From: Rhodospirillales bacterium RIFCSPLOWO2_02_FULL_58_16
GTDB lineage: Bacteria; Pseudomonadota; Alphaproteobacteria; Rhodospirillales; 2-02-FULL-58-16
Reading direction: 5' to 3'
Assembly: GCA_001830425.1 (NCBI GenBank)
Contig: MIAA01000052.1
Span: 134,154 to 177,549, forward strand
DNA length: 43,396 nucleotides
A program made the position numbers and the translations under genes. Positions 12,745-43,317 of this stretch are shown here, in pieces (within the stretch, counting starts at the first letter, position 1; every line of letters begins with the position of its first letter). Under the pieces are notes generated by a model. The model was not told the origin of the DNA, made no database searches, and worked only from the letters and a program-made list of their open reading frames with translations.

Positions 12745-13572
12745 GTGCGCATCGGGCGCCTTATGAGCGGGTTCATCACCGTTTTGGCGGCCTCCTATTT
12801 CTTGATGGTCGCCGCTCTGTTCCTGTTCCAGCGCAGCCTTCTGTACTTTCCCGATACTTCGGTTCCGTCGCCGACGGCGAGCGGCGTTGCCGAAATGCGG
12901 CCGGCGATCTTGCGGACTGCGGACGGCATTGACCTTCGCTCCTGGTACAGGGCGGCGCCGCCGGGAAGACCGACGATAATTTTCTTTCACGGCAATGCCG
13001 GAAATATCGGGAGTCGCAGCGACAAGGCGCGCCCTTACCTGGACGCCGGGTACGGTCTGCTGTTGCTCGAATATCGAGGGTATGGCGGGAATACGGGAAA
13101 ACCGACGGAAGAAGGCCTTTACGCCGACGGCCGCGCCGCCCTCGCTTTCCTTGCCGGCGAAGGCGTCAAGCCGGAATTAACGGTGCTTTACGGCGAATCT
13201 CTCGGCTCCGGCGTCGCCGTCAGGATGGCCGCCGAGATGGCGCAGGAAACTCCCGCCGCCGCGCTGGCGCTGGAGGCGCCGTTTACCTCCGTCACCGACG
13301 TTGCCGCCCATCACTATCCCTATGCTCCGGTTCGTCTGCTGAACAGGGACAAGTTTGATTCCGCATCCCGCATCGCCGGCGTCAGATGTCCGCTGTTAAT
13401 CATCCATGGCGAAAATGACGGCACGGTCCCCGTAAAATTCGGACAAAAGCTTTTTGCTCTGGCGCAACAACCCAAGGAAAGCCGTTGGCTCGCCGGAGTC
13501 GGACACAATGAAATATACGACTTCGGCGGGGCCGACGCCGTGCTTGATTTTTTGAAACGCTCTAATCTTTAG
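12745..13572 (+). CDS. Membrane-anchored alpha/beta hydrolase (Bem46-like)
   Basis: This 275-residue protein has one N-terminal membrane helix (about residues 10-30) and an alpha/beta-hydrolase domain. The oxyanion segment IIFFHGNAGNIGSR, the nucleophile elbow GESLGSG, an acid in HGENDGTVPV and the catalytic His in GVGHNEIYDF are all visible, so the triad is intact. Such Bem46/YfhR-like proteins are serine hydrolases facing the periplasm or membrane; the substrate is unknown. Translation probably starts at the GTG at 12745, which has AAGGAGG 7 bp upstream; an ATG at 12763 is the alternative. The 138-bp gap after it holds nothing I can support. Confidence 0.85.
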   Translation: MRIGRLMSGFITVLAASYFLMVAALFLFQRSLLYFPDTSVPSPTASGVAEMRPAILRTADGIDLRSWYRAAPPGRPTIIFFHGNAGNIGSRSDKARPYLDAGYGLLLLEYRGYGGNTGKPTEEGLYADGRAALAFLAGEGVKPELTVLYGESLGSGVAVRMAAEMAQETPAAALALEAPFTSVTDVAAHHYPYAPVRLLNRDKFDSASRIAGVRCPLLIIHGENDGTVPVKFGQKLFALAQQPKESRWLAGVGHNEIYDFGGADAVLDFLKRSNL

Positions 13573-30710: not shown

Positions 30711-32792
30711 TTATTTAAAAATGTCTTTGGCGACTCTGCCGAACAGCCGCAAGGTCAACGGCCGATTGAAAAGCACATTGGTCGACATGGCGCACTCGTA
30801 GGTGCACATACATCTCGAGTCTTTGATCCGTTTGCGTAGTTTTTGCGCTTCCGGAGATTTGATTATATCTTTGAAAGACGGCGACGATTCTGCTTCCGAC
30901 AGCGCGCCGATGGAGTCGTCAAGCACCTCGCAGGGCTGAACCCGACCATCCTCGAAGATGATATAGCTCAGGGTTCCGGCGGTGCACGGCGTTACGAACT
31001 CATTATTCTTCGCCACCCGGTAGATGAGTTCTTTTTGCATTATTTCCTTGGCCTTTAACAGTTTTCCGGCAAAAAATCCGTAATTTTTTGAGAGGGAATC
31101 TTTTAATATTTTCTCATAGGCCTTAACCGTCAGGTAATACCCGTCGATGACTTCCTCGGGAACCGGAGGATGATCGAAAGAGTGATAACGGAAAAGATTT
31201 ATGGAGATGGCGCTGGGCCGGAAATCATCGGCGATCTCCTTGATGAAGGCCGGTGAAACCTTGTAATTATCAGGCGTTACCGTAGTGGTTACATTCAGGT
31301 ACAGATTCGGATAAAACTTTTGGAGAGGACGAAGCCGCTCCATTGTTTGCCTTGCGCGCCCGAATGAGCCTTCGCCCCGTATGGAATCATGAACTTGCCG
31401 GGGGCCGTCGAGGGAAAGAAACACCAGGAGGTTCATTCGCTCATGGCGTTGAAGAATTTCCTGAACCGCCCTGAAAGTCTTTTCCACATACCAGCCGTTG
31501 GTCGGAAGGCTGAATATGTGGGGGCGGCAATTGCGCTGTATAATCCCCGTTAATTCCACCAAATCATTTCTCAGAACAGGCTCTCCACCGGCCAGGGAAT
31601 ACCAGAGAACGGGACCGATCTCGCGGGTTGCCTTATCCACTGCGTTCAGACTCATCTCGCCGGGGTCTTTAGCGTCCAATTCCTCCTTATAGAAACAGTG
31701 CCTGCACCTGAGGTTACAGCGGGCCGTGACAAAATGAATGATTTGGATGGGAGACCCCGTTCGCGCTACCACGCACGCAAAAGCCATGAATAAATCCGAT
31801 AACGAACGAGCCTCTTCCAGCGCACGTTTTGAGTACCAGACTGCGGCTGAACTCGCTATGGCCGCCGTCACGGACATGCCGAGAAACGGCCACACCGCCA
31901 GGGCGCGCAGTTTCCAGGCCGGCGGCAGGCCTTTAAGCATGACGGGCCAAAGGGCCACAGGGCAGGCAAGCAGCAGCAACAAGATTCCGGCAATCGCCGG
32001 CGTCAACGACGCAGGAACAACCGCCGACAATACCGCCCAGAACGGAACAAGCGCCCCGGCAAGCCAGGTAAGAACAATTGCCGGGCCGAGCTTCGCTGAC
32101 GATCCCTTGAAAACATGCGGGTAACGCCGGCGGACCTGAAACGAATTGAATGCCTTGTGATAGTAGTCGGCAAGAAAGCCCTTGAAGTCGTAATTTTTGT
32201 AGTGGACCGCTTCGAAATCATGGGTAATCTCGAATTTAATTCCAAGATTTCGACAACGTGAAAAGAACTCTACATCTTCATAGGTTTCAATCGAGTTGTT
32301 GAATCCCCCGACCTCTTCAAAAAAATTTCGCAGCATAAGAAAATGCGAGGAAGCCCACCAGTCATCGGAATCCGACGATGGTTTTCTGGTCATCCGATAG
32401 TCCAGAATCAGGTTTTGCAACAGGGGAAAGAACGGATCATTTTCCCGGTCGGCTATATAATGCCCGCAAATAACGCTTTGAGTTTTTCTTCGTACCGCCT
32501 CGATAACGGCGCTCCGTGATCTTTCCGTAAAAACTACGTCGGAATCCACAAAGATCAGATACTCCCCCTTTGCCCTGGCGGCGCCTATATTTCTTGCCGC
32601 GCCGGCCGGAGTGCGCCTTTGCAGCCAAACCAGCGTTACGTCTTCATCGACAACATCCGGCTTTTCGGGCGATGAATCGACGACAATGATTTCAAGCGCC
32701 CCGATGCCCCGCAATGAATTGATCACCGTGGACAGATGGGGGCTTTTGTAGGACGGAATTATTATTGATAGAGAAAGATTCGTCATCGCCAT
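30711..32792 (-). CDS. Glycosyltransferase-2 / radical-SAM (SPASM) fusion protein
   Basis: One 693-residue frame carries two enzymes. Residues about 6-230 are a family-2 glycosyltransferase (LSIIIPSYKSP, the DXD-type FVDSD at 81-85, then SIETYEDVEFFSRC with the catalytic-region acidic residues). Residues about 236-320 hold two or three membrane helices. Residues about 350-690 are a radical-SAM domain with CNLRCRHC (Cys359, Cys363, Cys366), AGGEPVLR and LSLDGP. A SPASM-type auxiliary-cluster tail follows: Cys603-x12-Gly-x4-Cys621, then the CMCTYEC cluster (Cys661, 663, 667). Membrane tethering suggests action on a lipid-linked glycan or a membrane-bound peptide. The substrate is unknown, and no frame break is visible between the halves. 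Confidence 0.88.
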   Translation of the reverse strand: MAMTNLSLSIIIPSYKSPHLSTVINSLRGIGALEIIVVDSSPEKPDVVDEDVTLVWLQRRTPAGAARNIGAARAKGEYLIFVDSDVVFTERSRSAVIEAVRRKTQSVICGHYIADRENDPFFPLLQNLILDYRMTRKPSSDSDDWWASSHFLMLRNFFEEVGGFNNSIETYEDVEFFSRCRNLGIKFEITHDFEAVHYKNYDFKGFLADYYHKAFNSFQVRRRYPHVFKGSSAKLGPAIVLTWLAGALVPFWAVLSAVVPASLTPAIAGILLLLLACPVALWPVMLKGLPPAWKLRALAVWPFLGMSVTAAIASSAAVWYSKRALEEARSLSDLFMAFACVVARTGSPIQIIHFVTARCNLRCRHCFYKEELDAKDPGEMSLNAVDKATREIGPVLWYSLAGGEPVLRNDLVELTGIIQRNCRPHIFSLPTNGWYVEKTFRAVQEILQRHERMNLLVFLSLDGPRQVHDSIRGEGSFGRARQTMERLRPLQKFYPNLYLNVTTTVTPDNYKVSPAFIKEIADDFRPSAISINLFRYHSFDHPPVPEEVIDGYYLTVKAYEKILKDSLSKNYGFFAGKLLKAKEIMQKELIYRVAKNNEFVTPCTAGTLSYIIFEDGRVQPCEVLDDSIGALSEAESSPSFKDIIKSPEAQKLRKRIKDSRCMCTYECAMSTNVLFNRPLTLRLFGRVAKDIFK

Positions 32793-32932: not shown

Positions 32933-34441
32933 ATGCGATTATTTACAAATTTAGCCGTAGCGGGAGCGGCGTTGTGTTTGACGCTTTTTGCCGTAAGATT
33001 TTCTTCGGCGATCTCATTAACCGAGCCTTTGCAGCTTCACACCACCGGAGATGAATTCACAAATATATTTTATGTATGGAAGTATACCCAAGGTCAGCCG
33101 ATCTACAACGACCCTTATGAGAGTCCTTACAGCCTGTTTGTCTACAACCGGCTCTTTCCCGCCGTCTATGGGACGTTTTCCAAGGCGATAATGTGGGTTT
33201 TCTCGTTAGAGGACGCTTGGCTGCCGACCGTCTCCCGCCTCTTGACCCTGATCGCCGCCTTTGCAGGCGCGGCGGCATCATACATTTCATTCGTCCGGGC
33301 ATCGGAAGCCCATGATAATTCACGAAAGGCGTTATGCCTGGGGTTTGCGATTTTCATTATGTTCGGTCCCCTGATCGGCTTCTGGGCGCTGACGGTCAGG
33401 GCCGATCTTTGGGCCATGTTTTTTGAAATTATCGGCATTACGCTGTTTTTGGCTTATTACCCCCGCAAGCGCATTTCTGCCGTCTTGTTCGTGGTCGTCG
33501 CCGTGTATCTGGCCTGGTCCTTCAAGCAGGGCAATATTTTCTCGGCCGGAGGCGTCGGCCTGCTTTTGCTGGCGCGGCGCGACTGGAAGCCGTTGCTTGT
33601 TCTGGCGACGTTGCTTCCGACCGCCTGGGCCGTCACCTTTTACATCGGGGATGAACTTTGGCTCCGCTCCATCACGTTGAATGACTACCCGCTCCTGCCT
33701 ACCGTCGAACGGATGGTCCGAAACATGGCGAACTTCGGCGTTAAGTCCGGTCCCCTTTTATTTTTTCTCGCGGCCTTGGCGGCGGTCGCCTTCAAGTCAC
33801 GCGACCGCCTGATGTCCCTGTGGCGGAACGATGCGTTCATGCTCACTTCGGGAGCGGCGGCCTGCGCCCTGACCCTGTCCATCCCGGCAAGCGCCCAGCA
33901 CGGCGGGGCGGAAAACTACTTTTTTACCCTGTCCTATTTTCTCGGTTTAATGATCATGGCGAGTCTTCCCATGCTGGTTCGGGAAGGAGGGGCGGCGTTA
34001 AAGTGGCCCATATTGGCCGGAAGCGTCGGCTGGGGAACCTTGCTCGTTGCCGTTATTCTGGTTTTATCCGGCGTTGCCGGAGTTACCGACATACGCCCGC
34101 AACACGAGGCTTATACGCGCATGAAACAATGCGCCGACACCCTTCCCCGTCCGCTGTTTATTAACACCCCATACATGGGCCTGCCCTGGATGACGCCGGG
34201 AAATACCCCCTATGTCTTTTCATTCGTTTATTATAAGGAGCGGGCGCTGGGGAAAAAATTCCAGGACGGCGGCATCGGCGGCCTTATCGCCAAAGGCGCT
34301 TTCAACGCCGTCGTCGCCTTCGATTCAGAAGGAGTCGTCGATGGAGCGTCGCTGGACGGCTATACCCTGACGGAGCGCCCTCAGTGTCCCGATTTATACG
34401 TTTATCTGCGCAATCCTTCCGCTGAACAGGGCCGGAAATGA
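32933..34441 (+). CDS. Polytopic GT-C-like membrane glycosyltransferase candidate
   Basis: The 502-residue protein has about nine or ten membrane helices. An acidic pair in the first extracytoplasmic loop (HTTGDEFTNIFYVWKYTQGQ, about residues 37-56) resembles the catalytic loop of GT-C glycosyltransferases such as those in the ArnT/PMT superfamily. A YNDPYESPYSLFVYNRLFP segment follows, with a soluble C-terminal tail. Such enzymes move sugars from polyprenyl-phosphate donors. Specificity is not predictable. It overlaps the next gene by ATGA and belongs with the glycan island. Confidence 0.65.
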   Translation: MRLFTNLAVAGAALCLTLFAVRFSSAISLTEPLQLHTTGDEFTNIFYVWKYTQGQPIYNDPYESPYSLFVYNRLFPAVYGTFSKAIMWVFSLEDAWLPTVSRLLTLIAAFAGAAASYISFVRASEAHDNSRKALCLGFAIFIMFGPLIGFWALTVRADLWAMFFEIIGITLFLAYYPRKRISAVLFVVVAVYLAWSFKQGNIFSAGGVGLLLLARRDWKPLLVLATLLPTAWAVTFYIGDELWLRSITLNDYPLLPTVERMVRNMANFGVKSGPLLFFLAALAAVAFKSRDRLMSLWRNDAFMLTSGAAACALTLSIPASAQHGGAENYFFTLSYFLGLMIMASLPMLVREGGAALKWPILAGSVGWGTLLVAVILVLSGVAGVTDIRPQHEAYTRMKQCADTLPRPLFINTPYMGLPWMTPGNTPYVFSFVYYKERALGKKFQDGGIGGLIAKGAFNAVVAFDSEGVVDGASLDGYTLTERPQCPDLYVYLRNPSAEQGRK

Positions 34442-35391
34442 GCATCAATCTCTACGACTATAACAAAAATATTTACAGCCAGAACGGCGAGGATGGAATC
34501 ATCGAAAAATTGCTGTCCGTTTTAAATATGACCGGCGGTTATTTCGTTGAATTCGGCGCATGGGACGGAAAGCATTGGAGCAACGCCTATCATCTTTATG
34601 AAAAAGGCTGGAAAGGCTGTTTTATTGAAGGAGATCAAAAACGCTTCACGCGGCTTTGCGCCAACATTCCCGATGAGACCGTGCTGAAAATCAATGCCCT
34701 TGTTGAAGAAGACGGCGACAATTCACTCGACAGCCTGCTACAAAAACGCGGCGTTAAGGACATTGATTTCCTGTCTGTGGATATTGATTCCGATGACTTG
34801 CGGGTTTGGGAGGGAATAAAGCATTTCAACCCGAAAATAGTCATCGTTGAATATAATCCGGTTATTCCGTTCGACACCAGATACATAAATCCGAAGGGAA
34901 AAATGAATGGAAACTCGGCGCTTTCAATCCATGAATCCGCTAGGTCGCGCGGCTATGTCCTGATCGAAGGAACCAACACAAACCTGATATTCGTAAAGCC
35001 GGATATCATCAAGAACACAAAAATACGCGAAAAAACCTTGCAGGAAATAAAGGATCAGACCTTCCAGTTGAGATATTTTTTCAGTCAGGACGGAACCCTT
35101 CTGCACAATTACGAAAAAATAAATAATGAAGGCATCACTGAGTTATTCCCCATTCCGTGGTCGCTTTCATTCGGCATACAGCCTGTGCCTAAAATATTCC
35201 GGAAATACTATGACCGCGTTAATTACGGCAGCGTTTTGTTTTCATTCACGGCGGCAATTTTTCGATGCCCAATTCAGATGTTCAAGCTGGTGAGTTTGTT
35301 CATAAAGACTATTTTTCATGGCAGAACCCTCAAGAAATCCCTTTCGCTGCTCATGAACAAGGCGGCCCTGACAAAAAGTCTCAAAGAATAA
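34438..35391 (+). CDS. FkbM-like SAM-dependent methyltransferase
   Basis: The 317-residue protein has a class I methyltransferase N-terminus: SQNGEDGIIEKLLSV, then GYFVEFGAWDGKHWSNAYHL (the SAM-binding glycine loop region) and GCFIEGDQKRF, then DFLSVDIDSDDLRVWEGI. FkbM-type enzymes often methylate sugars in polysaccharides. The C-terminal 100 residues are less conserved and contain a short hydrophobic stretch. The gene is clearly more AT-rich than polA next to it, which suggests acquisition. It overlaps the upstream membrane glycosyltransferase gene by 4 bp and converges with polA. Confidence 0.72.
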   Translation: MSINLYDYNKNIYSQNGEDGIIEKLLSVLNMTGGYFVEFGAWDGKHWSNAYHLYEKGWKGCFIEGDQKRFTRLCANIPDETVLKINALVEEDGDNSLDSLLQKRGVKDIDFLSVDIDSDDLRVWEGIKHFNPKIVIVEYNPVIPFDTRYINPKGKMNGNSALSIHESARSRGYVLIEGTNTNLIFVKPDIIKNTKIREKTLQEIKDQTFQLRYFFSQDGTLLHNYEKINNEGITELFPIPWSLSFGIQPVPKIFRKYYDRVNYGSVLFSFTAAIFRCPIQMFKLVSLFIKTIFHGRTLKKSLSLLMNKAALTKSLKE

Positions 35392-38328: not shown

Positions 38329-38388
38329 CCGCCTGAGTAAATGCTGTTCCGCCGATAGTGAAATGGTAGTATGGTTTTCTCGAATTCG
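38329..38388 (+). repeat. 60-bp direct repeat, left copy (element boundary)
   Basis: These 60 bp are identical to 40999-41058 (both run CCGCCTGAGTAAATGCTGTT ... TTCTCGAATTCG). Beyond the repeat, 13 of the next 21 bases still match the sulP 5' edge, including GATGCCG, so this copy is a decayed duplicate of the sulP leader. The sequence ends in the palindrome CGAATTCG. It forms the left border of the insertion between polA and sulP. Confidence 0.95.
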
Positions 38389-38461
38389 CAAACTATCTGT
38401 GGGATGCCGTTTGTGGGCAAGTATCGGGTTATCTTTCAGTAATCATCAGCCTACTGGAAAA

Positions 38462-40123
38462 ATGATGGTAAGCCGCCTAATTAACAATCGAGGTAGCCTT
38501 GCGGATCAACCAAGGCCAGTGGCCGAGCAAATTCGGGGCAACACACCAACAATCCGCCAAGTTATCAATGTCACCGCTTCTATTGCCGGTAAAGACAAAC
38601 CGGCAGCTATTAAGATGGCAAAACAACAGTCTCTTATGTGGGTACAAAAGAGAGTAGGTAAACTTACAGAAACTGCTTGGTCATTCGAAGATTTTGAGCA
38701 CCTAATACCTGGATGTTCCGCAGCCGCAGTCACCATTAAGAGAGAAAATATCGATTACTGGGTTGTTCGATGTGATGATCCAGACAAAAAGGTCGCGGGG
38801 AGAACATGGACGACAGAGATTACGGTTGCGCTGAAAGACAATCAGGCCACTTTCGGCTTGAGGCTTATGGCTACCGGCAGGGGAGATTTGTCGGATTTCA
38901 TTCCGTCTGTCCCGGGGATTGTAAGGCAAGTCAGCGAAAATCCCGGTCTTGTCCGCATTGGGCGAACTATCAGCGATCTGCCATGGATTATTAAAGATAA
39001 TGACTCATTAAATGAGATGCTCGATTTAATTGAGGACTCGAAGAGGAAAAATCCAGTCTATGTTGTTTCATTGAATGAATACGAGGATGATCCCAAGACA
39101 GCCTCAATCGACGTTTTTGATATTGCCAAACGGTGTATCGGTATTGCACATATTGTCGTCGTTCCCGGCGAATTGACTTATGGAATATCTGATCGTTTCG
39201 GGAAGATGTTTTCGGTTTATCGCGGTGCTGTACGAACCTATAAAACGGGGTTCAATCTTGATGAGGATACACCGTTTACTCACCCAATAGCTTTGCCAGA
39301 GACTATAAAACAGTGGGAAGGTGGTGGGGCTGATGGTTTTGTTGCCATGTTGGCAAGAAATGCGGCATCCGAAAGTTTGGCTCGCATCGATCATGAGAAA
39401 GACCTTCCAAGCTTTTCAAAAGTCAAACAACATGCAATCGAAATGCGCCGTGAGACGGCTGTTGATGATGAACTGCTAAATCTAGCATATCAGGAAATTG
39501 AGGAGAAGGGTAAGCAATCAGCCGAATGGGAGGGGATGGCTTTAGAGGAAGAAGAAAAGCGGAAAGACGTAGAACATACAAAAAAAGAGTTGGAAAGCCG
39601 CTTATACTGGCTTCAGAAGCGCAATGATGACCTTGAAACAAAAATTAAGGAAATCACCAATAAATCAACTGATCACGACACCCCCATTCCCGAATCCCTT
39701 GATGAACTTGGCGATTGGACAAATAAATACCTCGCAGGCCGCATAATAATGGCAGGGAGGGCTTTGCGGTCTGCTAAAGGGGCAGTTTTTGACGATGTTG
39801 GCCTTGTTTACAAGGCATTATTGCTGCTCGCCAATGAATACCGAGAAAAGATGCTCGGAAAAGGGCAAGAAGCATTTGATAAAAAGCTTGAAGAACTTGG
39901 CCTTGGATGTTCGGCCACATTCGCAGGCGGTTTGGCCGGTGAACAAGGCGATACTTACTTTCTTAAACATGAAGGTCGTAAGCGTGAGCTAAATATGCAC
40001 CTGAAATATGGCAACGCCCACAATGAGTCTCGCTGTATGCGGGTTTACTTCTTTTGGGATGAGGAACGGAGCCTAGCTGTCGTTGGTTCCCTGCCGGCGC
40101 ATTTGCGAACAAGAGCGACTTAA
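38462..40123 (+). CDS. Unrecognised ~553-residue protein of the inserted element (possible defence protein)
   Basis: I do not recognise this protein. It is visibly more AT-rich than its neighbours. From the ATG at 38462 it has an alpha/beta N-terminal part (about 60-305, with PVYVVSLNEYEDD, AKRCIGIAHIVVVPGE and GAVRTYKTGFN), a coiled coil rich in Glu/Lys (about 342-402), a helical region (LAGRIIMAGRALRSAKGAVFDDVGLVYKALLLLANEYREKM in the frame, about 424-465) and a compact C-terminal module (LKHEGRK then RCMRVYFFWDEE and VVGSLPAHLRT). That ending is reminiscent of small RelE/HigB-like domains, but this is a weak resemblance. The frame is open to 38363 inside the repeat; the later ATGs fit better, though ribosome-binding sequence is weak. 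A role in phage defence is inferred from context only. Confidence 0.75.
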   Translation: MMVSRLINNRGSLADQPRPVAEQIRGNTPTIRQVINVTASIAGKDKPAAIKMAKQQSLMWVQKRVGKLTETAWSFEDFEHLIPGCSAAAVTIKRENIDYWVVRCDDPDKKVAGRTWTTEITVALKDNQATFGLRLMATGRGDLSDFIPSVPGIVRQVSENPGLVRIGRTISDLPWIIKDNDSLNEMLDLIEDSKRKNPVYVVSLNEYEDDPKTASIDVFDIAKRCIGIAHIVVVPGELTYGISDRFGKMFSVYRGAVRTYKTGFNLDEDTPFTHPIALPETIKQWEGGGADGFVAMLARNAASESLARIDHEKDLPSFSKVKQHAIEMRRETAVDDELLNLAYQEIEEKGKQSAEWEGMALEEEEKRKDVEHTKKELESRLYWLQKRNDDLETKIKEITNKSTDHDTPIPESLDELGDWTNKYLAGRIIMAGRALRSAKGAVFDDVGLVYKALLLLANEYREKMLGKGQEAFDKKLEELGLGCSATFAGGLAGEQGDTYFLKHEGRKRELNMHLKYGNAHNESRCMRVYFFWDEERSLAVVGSLPAHLRTRAT

Positions 40124-40998: not shown

Positions 40999-41058
40999 CC
41001 GCCTGAGTAAATGCTGTTCCGCCGATAGTGAAATGGTAGTATGGTTTTCTCGAATTCG
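40999..41058 (+). repeat. 60-bp direct repeat, right copy (sulP leader)
   Basis: This copy is identical over 60 bp to 38329-38388 and runs directly into the sulP ribosome-binding site GGAGG (41058-41062). It is the intact, presumably original, version. Removing one repeat copy plus the material between would restore polA-sulP adjacency and delete 2,670 bp. Confidence 0.95.
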
Positions 41059-41073
41059 GAGGTTGTCTGCAAG

Positions 41074-43317
41074 ATGCCGGTCAATGGCCCGTCACTGTCC
41101 GCGTCGTCGCCGATGAAATTACTGAAGCCGGAAGACCCGGCCGGCGATTTTTGGGGCGGCCTCGCCGCCATGCTGGTCGCCCTGCCCGCCGCCATCGCTT
41201 TCGGCGTCACGATCTACGCGACGCTGGGCGGCGCCAACGCCGCGCTGGGCGCGTTGGCCGGGATTTTGGGAACCACCGCGCTCGGGCTTGTCGCCCCGGC
41301 GCTGGGCGGCACCAACCGGCTTATCACGGCGCCGTGCGCCCCGGCGGCGGCGGTGCTGTCGGCATTCGCCATTGAAGCCGTGCGCTCCGGCAGTCCGGTT
41401 GAAACCGTCTTGCTGCTGCTGGTTCTGCTCGGCCTTCTGGCCGGCGCGTTGCAAGTGCTGTTCGGCGTTCTGCGGCTGGGCCGCCTGATCAAGTACATGC
41501 CCTATACCGTGGTCAGCGGCTATCTGTCCGGCGTCGGCCTGATCATCATCGCAAGCCAGACGCCGAAATTTCTCGGCGCGCCCAAAGGGATGACGTTTTG
41601 GGAGGCGCTGGCGTCCCCCGATGTCTGGAGCCGGCAGGGGATAATCATCGGCGCCGTGACGATTGCCGTGATGCTCGGCGCTCCGCGTTTGATCAAGGCG
41701 GTTCCGGCGGCGATCCTCGGCCTGGGGGCCGGCGTAGCCGCCTACTTCATTCTCGCCGCGTTCGATCCGGCGCTGCTCACCCTTGACGCCAATCCCCTGG
41801 TCGTCGGCGCCCTCGGCGGCGGCGGCGGCATGGGCAGCTTTGCCGACGCTTTCAACAGCCGATGGGACTCGATTGCAAAAGTAGGCTTTGAGCAGTTAAA
41901 GACGTTGGCGATACCGGCCCTTACGCTGGCCGTTCTGCTGTCCATCGACACGCTGAAAACATGCGTGGTGCTTGATGCCTTGACCCGCTCGCGTCACGAT
42001 TCCAACCGTGAACTGATCGGCCAGGGTTTCGGCAATATCGCCGCCGGGATGATCGGCGGCATTCCCGGAGCAGGCACCATGGGGGCGACGTTGGTGAACA
42101 TCTCCAGCGGCGCCCGCAGCCGCTTGTCCGGCATAATCGAGGGCGTGCTTGCGCTGCTGGCCTTTCTGCTGCTGACGAATCTGATTTCCTGGGTTCCGGT
42201 GGCGGCGTTGGCCGGCATTCTGATCGTTATCGGCGTACGCATGATCGACCGCAACAGCTTCCAGTTCCTCAAATCGCGCTCGACCATTCTCGACTTTGCG
42301 GTGATCGTCGCCGTGATCGGCTCCGCGCTGACGATAAGCCTGATCGTCGCCTCGGGAGTAGGCGTCGCGCTGGCCGTTGTTTTATTTATCCGCGAACAAA
42401 TTCGCGGCTCGATCATTCGCCGCAAGGTGCTGGGAAACCAGATTTTCTCCAAGCGCATCCGCACCAGCGATGAAATGGAGATTCTTATCTCTCGCGGCGA
42501 CCGCGCCGCGATCATCGAGTTGCAGGGCAGCCTTTTTTTCGGCACCGCCGATCAGCTTTATTTGTGCCTTGAGCCGGAGATAAAAACCCGCGAGTTTGTA
42601 ATCCTCGACATGCGGCGGATTCAGACCGTGGACATCACGGCGGCGCATCTGCTTGAGCAGATCAAGGATATGATGATCGAGCGCGGAGGCTTTTTGATCT
42701 TTAGTAATATTCCTCAGGACCTGCCGTCGGGGCGCGACATGGAGAAGTATTTTTCCAAGGTCGGCCTTATGCGGTCGAAAAGTCCGGTGCGGGTGTTTCC
42801 CACCCTGGACGAAGCGCTGGAGTGGGTCGAAAATCGCATCATCGAAGAAGCCGCCCTGGCAAGAGACGATGAAGTTTTGTTGGAGCTGGATCAGGTCGAA
42901 CTGTTCAGCGGCCGCAAGGAAAAGACTCTGGCGGCGCTTGAATCGTGCATGGAAAAGCGCAGCGTCGCCGCAGGCGGGCGCATCTTCACGCGGGGCGAAG
43001 AGGGTGACGAGCTTTTCCTGATTCGTCGCGGCGCGGTCCGCATCCAGCTTCCGCTTAACGACCGGCAATCGCACCATCTCGGCACCTTCGGTCGCGGCGC
43101 TTTTTTCGGCGAAATGGCCTTCCTTGACGACGACGCCCGCTCGGCGGACGCGGTGGCGGTCGCCGATACGGAACTCTTTGTGATTTCACGCAAGACCTTC
43201 GACAAATTTGCCGAGGAACACAAAAAGGTGGCCATCAAGATGATGGAAGGCTTGGCCAGCGTGCTCGCCAACAGACTGCGCTACACCAACGCCGAACTGC
43301 GGGTGCTGCAATCGTAG
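41074..43317 (+). CDS. SulP-family anion transporter with STAS and cyclic-nucleotide-binding domains
   Basis: From the ATG at 41074 the protein has 747 residues. The SLC26/SulP transporter core (about 20-380) begins with FWGGLAAMLVALPAAIAFGV and has roughly a dozen membrane helices. A STAS domain follows (AIIELQGSLFFGTADQLYLCL ... FVILDMRRIQTVDITAAHLL), then a C-terminal cyclic-nucleotide-binding domain (about 620-720) with the phosphate-binding cassette GAFFGEMAFLDDDARSADA. Such fusions suggest anion uptake gated by cAMP or cGMP; the anion (sulfate, bicarbonate or other) is unknown. The ATG at 41041 lies inside the repeat; 41074 is chosen because GGAGG lies 11 bp upstream. Downstream (43318-43396) shows nothing further. 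Confidence 0.9.
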   Translation: MPVNGPSLSASSPMKLLKPEDPAGDFWGGLAAMLVALPAAIAFGVTIYATLGGANAALGALAGILGTTALGLVAPALGGTNRLITAPCAPAAAVLSAFAIEAVRSGSPVETVLLLLVLLGLLAGALQVLFGVLRLGRLIKYMPYTVVSGYLSGVGLIIIASQTPKFLGAPKGMTFWEALASPDVWSRQGIIIGAVTIAVMLGAPRLIKAVPAAILGLGAGVAAYFILAAFDPALLTLDANPLVVGALGGGGGMGSFADAFNSRWDSIAKVGFEQLKTLAIPALTLAVLLSIDTLKTCVVLDALTRSRHDSNRELIGQGFGNIAAGMIGGIPGAGTMGATLVNISSGARSRLSGIIEGVLALLAFLLLTNLISWVPVAALAGILIVIGVRMIDRNSFQFLKSRSTILDFAVIVAVIGSALTISLIVASGVGVALAVVLFIREQIRGSIIRRKVLGNQIFSKRIRTSDEMEILISRGDRAAIIELQGSLFFGTADQLYLCLEPEIKTREFVILDMRRIQTVDITAAHLLEQIKDMMIERGGFLIFSNIPQDLPSGRDMEKYFSKVGLMRSKSPVRVFPTLDEALEWVENRIIEEAALARDDEVLLELDQVELFSGRKEKTLAALESCMEKRSVAAGGRIFTRGEEGDELFLIRRGAVRIQLPLNDRQSHHLGTFGRGAFFGEMAFLDDDARSADAVAVADTELFVISRKTFDKFAEEHKKVAIKMMEGLASVLANRLRYTNAELRVLQS

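Follow-up and report, generated by a model that had tools for sequence, protein, structure and literature searches.

We identified a 693-aa protein, encoded at positions 30711–32792 (minus strand) of the window, the whole 43,396-nucleotide stretch of DNA analyzed here, that joins a family 2 glycosyltransferase (GT2) through membrane helices to a radical SAM (rSAM) enzyme with a SPASM/twitch-like auxiliary domain. Judged from sequence comparison, the fusion is the rarer form of a widespread two-gene GT2 + rSAM module. Our leading interpretation, to which we give a probability of roughly 55%, is that the protein is a membrane-bound glycan enzyme: it would add a sugar, radically modify that sugar or its acceptor, and feed a GT-C pathway. 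Comparisons of sequences and structures establish its domains, the recurrent pairing of GT2 with rSAM, the conservation of the fusion, and its location among polysaccharide genes.

Domain architecture and topology of the fusion protein

The frame starts with ATG and is uninterrupted, agreeing with the sequence-only reading, which had described a single unbroken frame carrying a DXD motif at residues 83–85, two or three membrane helices, a radical SAM core with the motif CNLRCRHC, and a Cys-rich tail (C-x12-G-x4-C plus CMCTYEC). Each of these elements was recovered. Residues 1–232 (32097–32792) form a GT2 catalytic domain of the GT-A fold, with a Glycos_transf_2 match at residues 9–141 (Pfam PF00535, 9.6e-15; 55.3 bits vs a cut-off of 23.3) and a DSD motif at residues 83–85 (32538–32546), in which D83 and D85 are invariant in all seven fusions, placing the domain in glycosyltransferase family 2.

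The membrane segment spans residues 233–343 (31764–32096). Hydropathy and the AlphaFold model agree on two clear transmembrane helices (236–255 and 261–285) followed by a long, hydrophobic-to-amphipathic helix (291–343), so the earlier count of two or three was correct. Similar hydrophobic helices are carried at the C-terminal ends of GT2s encoded as separate genes.

The radical SAM core occupies residues 344–560 (31113–31763) and matches Radical_SAM at residues 355–490 (Pfam PF04055, 6.2e-10; 39.9 bits vs a cut-off of 29.5). Its [4Fe-4S]/SAM motif, CNLRCRHC at residues 359–366 (31695–31718), supplies C359, C363, and C366 in the CxxxCxxC arrangement typical of the superfamily, with the Cys kept in 60 of 61 relatives, and a GGE motif lies at 402–404. 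The auxiliary-cluster region (30792–30986) contains five Cys, C603-x12-G616-x4-C621E ... C661-x-C663-x3-C667, the last three within CMCTYEC (661–667), and all five are present in 61 of 61 relatives. The Pfam SPASM match at residues 603–664 (21.1 bits) falls just below its cut-off of 21.5; with five Cys only, the pattern C-x12-G-x4-CE...CxCx3C is shorter than the canonical seven-Cys SPASM pattern (C-x9-15-G-x4-C ... Cx2Cx5Cx3C ... C).

An AlphaFold model built with an alignment input of 53 sequences reached a mean pLDDT of 90.3 and a pTM of 0.90. In VIA-align comparisons, residues 329–690 superpose on SkfB (Z 23.5), the nearest structure, then on BlsE (Z 22.7) and on DesII (Z 19.2), with further matches to SuiB, anSME, ChlB, and PqqE. 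The aligned ranges (329–678 with SkfB, 336–690 with anSME, 344–693 with ChlB) correspond to a SPASM/twitch-type fold. Residues 1–318 superpose on hyaluronan synthase (Z 21.6) and cellulose synthase BcsA (Z 19.5), so the helices following the GT2 domain resemble, in the model, the membrane/interface helices found in membrane-bound GT2 enzymes, although both of these matches are processive polymerases without an rSAM domain. Because the structural matches of the GT2 part range over enzymes with protein, lipid, and polymer substrates, they do not fix its acceptor, and no relative of established substrate came to light.

Helices 236–255 and 261–285 likely form a hairpin, and helix 291–343 may be embedded in the membrane or run along it; it is unlikely to be a third membrane crossing that would place the rSAM domain outside the cell. 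Since separate rSAM genes start directly with the core and have no obvious signal or membrane helix, we infer that the rSAM domain is cytosolic.

Conservation of the fusion

The sequence-only reading had allowed that homologues might always be two separate genes and the fusion an assembly error or accidental read-through. Most relatives are indeed two genes, but the 693-aa frame is clean, and whole-genome searches for the same domain order turned up full-length fusions in six further genomes (G339, G076, G044, G133, G793, and G027). The closest orthologues, from two other genera, match over nearly their full length (42% identity in G339, 36% in G076) and form one clade with the window fusion (support 100); the linker and membrane segment are conserved across these three. 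As the six further fusions come from independent genomes, the artefact explanation fails, and on sequence comparison we regard it as refuted by conserved orthologues, leaving it a negligible probability. The remaining fusions (G044, G133, G793, and G027) are more divergent. Across all seven, one to five fusion events are possible, and a topology test did not reject a single origin for the fusion of the window and that of Caenispirillum (AU p 0.17). A 707-aa ORF at locus L030 was also considered as a reversed rSAM–GT2 fusion and set aside, because its rSAM sits in a different frame and the locus thus holds two genes.

A widespread GT2–radical SAM module

Among 75 non-redundant family members, 31 have the gene order GT2→rSAM, 29 have rSAM→GT2, and seven are fused; no GT2 was found for the other eight, two of which lie close to the end of their stretch. 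Thus 67 of the 75 (89%) are fused to a GT2 or lie within 700 bases of one on the same strand. The same GT2 model, which was trained on part of the family's own GT2s, placed a GT2 beside 0 of 18 rSAM genes of other subfamilies in the same group of genomes. The scan pattern was derived from the rSAM end alone, so GT2 adjacency was not built into it. Gene overlaps of 1 or 4 bases are common in GT2→rSAM pairs (∼13 loci), and functional coupling of the two domains is supported.

A scan of genome contigs with a single-protein query returned no matches, and an alignment query found 46 loci in Planctomycetota, Nitrospirota, Pseudomonadota, archaea, and others. The earlier suggestion that coupling the two activities in one protein is unusual is not supported insofar as it makes the combination peculiar to this protein, which is the less common, fused version of the widespread two-gene module. 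Each half is known in kind; in the open-licence full-text literature we could not find a description of GT2/rSAM-SPASM fusions or pairs in glycan pathways, nor of their widespread pairing.

The genome of the window itself encodes two further separate pairs, about 20–28 kb into contig C2, accompanied by GT1, GT2, FkbM, PMT-like GT-C, and SGNH genes. On that contig (L009:5047–18582), two gene groups run divergently, and in each of them a separate rSAM + GT2 pair is accompanied by genes for a GT-C-like membrane protein and an SGNH hydrolase-like product. Further radical SAM genes also occur near the fusions of G076 (L107:8270–9289) and G339 (L111:7329–9406), the latter as a separate rSAM/GT2 pair ∼28 kb from the fusion.

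Genomic context

Divergent from the fusion gene, a 502-aa membrane protein is encoded at 32933–34441 (plus strand). Its AlphaFold model (pLDDT 83.9) gave 13 structure matches at E ≤ 0.001, all to GT-C-fold oligosaccharyl-/glycosyltransferases (PglB, AglB, OST, ArnT, ALG9, and ALG12), bearing out its earlier description as GT-C-like. An FkbM-like methyltransferase gene (34438–35391, plus strand; 317 aa) overlaps it by 4 bases, scoring 24.3 bits vs a cut-off of 22.7 for PF05050 and 17.1 vs 37.7 for NCBIfam TIGR01444. In the other genomes with a fusion, neither gene lies beside it, and we rejected them as fixed companions that travel with it. Of the order's 317 genomes, 34 encode a member of the GT-C family, most of them lacking the fusion; among 14 homologous GT-C loci examined, a B12-rSAM gene lies within 1.5 kb in five and a radical SAM gene in one.

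The surface-glycan setting proposed from the sequence finds backing around the other fusions, whose neighbours are nucleotide-sugar, polysaccharide, and flippase genes: UDP-glucose dehydrogenase, RmlD-like, TylF methyltransferase, and GT87 genes at L110, a Wzx-type flippase at L108, UDP-GlcNAc 2-epimerase and polysaccharide deacetylase at L121, NAD epimerase and B12-rSAM at L107, and B12-rSAM at L109. GT-C proteins and methyltransferases are also encoded near other fusions. Polysaccharide genes surround fused and separate copies alike, often with B12-rSAM genes nearby; B12-rSAM genes also adjoin archaeal pairs.

A longer conserved cassette surrounds the pair in Nitrospirota, Gammaproteobacteria, and some Alphaproteobacteria, with HpnJ-like B12-rSAM, FAD amine oxidase, YeeE, rhodanese, and PMT_2 genes among its parts. 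At L064:6776–17584 it comprises rhodanese, GT2, rSAM, HpnJ-like B12-rSAM, FAD amine oxidase (PRK07208 type), TusA-like, YeeE/YedE sulphur transporter, and PMT_2 GT-C genes and a DsrE-like 100-aa protein, linking sulphur trafficking with a glycan/glycolipid pathway. Similar cassettes, not every one with all parts, are found at L034, L038, L043, L047, L055, L056, L058, L063, L074, L076, L078, and L113. Two tandem related ORFs of 60–70 aa (L064:12995–13201 and 13243–13428, minus strand) each encode a product with a single hydrophobic segment and a C-terminal end that is conserved and contains Tyr, with homologues in L055, L063, L074, and L113. The small conserved ORFs of the cassette were considered as RiPP precursors and discarded; by eye they are TusA-like, universal-stress-like, or single-TM proteins and not obvious precursors.

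Proposed function and alternative explanations

As a membrane-bound glycan enzyme, the fusion would help to build glycans on the cytoplasmic side of the inner membrane. Its GT2 domain, anchored there by the helices, would take a nucleotide-sugar as donor and pass the sugar to an acceptor in the membrane, which may be a lipid carrier or a lipid-linked glycan still being extended. On the cytosolic side, the adjoining rSAM domain would use SAM and its [4Fe-4S] cluster to abstract hydrogen from this sugar or from the acceptor. The residue would thereby be oxidised, epimerised, deoxygenated, or rearranged, and the auxiliary cluster would transfer electrons; this radical step could come before or after sugar transfer. 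After flipping, the product would serve a GT-C enzyme, for example the one encoded next to the fusion, and the FkbM-like enzyme might add methyl groups as decoration. ArnC–ArnT type pathways run in a comparable order (GT2, on-carrier modification, then GT-C transfer), and the neighbouring GT-C protein matches ArnT (TM 0.56/0.53), although the on-carrier step there is a deformylation and not radical chemistry. The combination of glycosyltransferase and rSAM chemistry on a lipid-linked sugar has a precedent in HpnI (GT), HpnK, and HpnJ (rSAM), which convert lipid-linked GlcNAc to a cyclitol ether (PMC12583986).

That precedent, in which a glycosyltransferase and an rSAM enzyme act in turn on a membrane-lipid sugar (PMC12583986), also favours an HpnI/HpnJ-like role: a hopanoid, diglyceride, or ether lipid of the membrane would be glycosylated by the GT2 and its headgroup sugar rearranged by the rSAM domain, the end product being a membrane lipid and not a surface polysaccharide. 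The HpnJ-like B12-rSAM of the Nitrospirota/Gammaproteobacteria cassette (209 bits vs a cut-off of 577.6) and the B12-rSAM genes beside archaeal pairs point the same way. The fusion is, however, not an HpnJ: the 25 best-scoring NCBIfam hits of the window protein do not include TIGR03471, a PF02310 match is lacking, and HpnJ is a separate gene whose relatives here carry a B12-binding domain, whereas the fusion has none and bears a SPASM/twitch-like auxiliary domain. With fusions located among nucleotide-sugar, flippase, and polysaccharide genes, and with GT-C genes that fit polyprenyl-phosphate sugars, we consider both the headgroup chemistry and a membrane-lipid end product unlikely. It is more doubtful still that the domains are simply co-localised, the rSAM domain altering a free nucleotide-sugar (or cofactor) that the GT2 then uses, with no lipid-linked radical step. 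In its favour, DesII, which matches the rSAM fold, is a deoxysugar deaminase whose substrate is a free TDP-sugar. BlsE, the second-best match to that fold, acts on a sugar too; both are soluble enzymes of free nucleoside- or nucleotide-sugars without a GT2. One fusion order and both gene-pair orders show only a joint need of the two functions. Nothing speaks directly against co-localisation: the fusion and the translational coupling hint at channelling, which this reading accommodates as well as the membrane-bound glycan enzyme does.

A peptide product had also been entertained in the sequence-only reading: the rSAM domain would cyclise or crosslink a short peptide that the GT2 glycosylates, yielding a RiPP or glycopeptide like mycofactocin, whose MftF and MftC are a known GT2 + rSAM pair (PMC7491314). 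In NCBIfam, the GT2 part matches MftF best, the weak matches of the rSAM part are mostly to SPASM maturases, and the top structural match, SkfB, is a RiPP maturase. Against this, the mycofactocin scores are far below their cut-offs (58.8 vs 280 for MftF and 48.6 vs 265 for MftC), the MftB chaperone is absent in seven genomes, PqqD/RRE genes are missing from the vicinity of all fusions (PqqD genes, where present, are on other contigs), and a comparison of small ORFs around the three closest fusions (window, L110, and L107) found none shared that could be a peptide substrate gene. These findings weaken the glycosylated-peptide idea, which now seems quite improbable. SkfB, anSME, and PqqE share the core fold and an auxiliary-cluster C-terminus with the fusion, but they act on peptides or proteins, are not GT2-fused, and differ from its five-Cys pattern.

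Beyond the proposed membrane-bound glycan enzyme of the window, one may tentatively envisage a general class of “glycan radical maturases”, GT2 and five-Cys radical SAM domains, fused or coupled, although we think such a class somewhat less probable than its absence. Across several bacterial phyla and archaea, its members could, again tentatively, attach sugars to membrane carriers and afterwards remodel them by radical chemistry. Radical SAM enzymes with auxiliary clusters are mostly known as peptide and protein modifiers; an rSAM family so closely tied to membrane GT2s, 89% paired or fused across several phyla, suggests routine radical chemistry on glycans or glycolipids. If glycan radical maturases exist, surface glycans may contain sugar residues not yet seen in them. 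The CE...CxCx3C pattern beside a GT2 offers a sequence signature for finding such pathways, and the fused proteins a convenient single-chain target for testing.

Other genes in the window

A 586-aa ORF at 38363–40123, with no significant Pfam or NCBIfam match, sits in a stretch whose GC content (0.44–0.48) is markedly lower than that of its surroundings. At 41041–43317, a single protein combines a SulP-type transporter with a STAS domain and, at its C terminus, a cyclic-nucleotide-binding domain.
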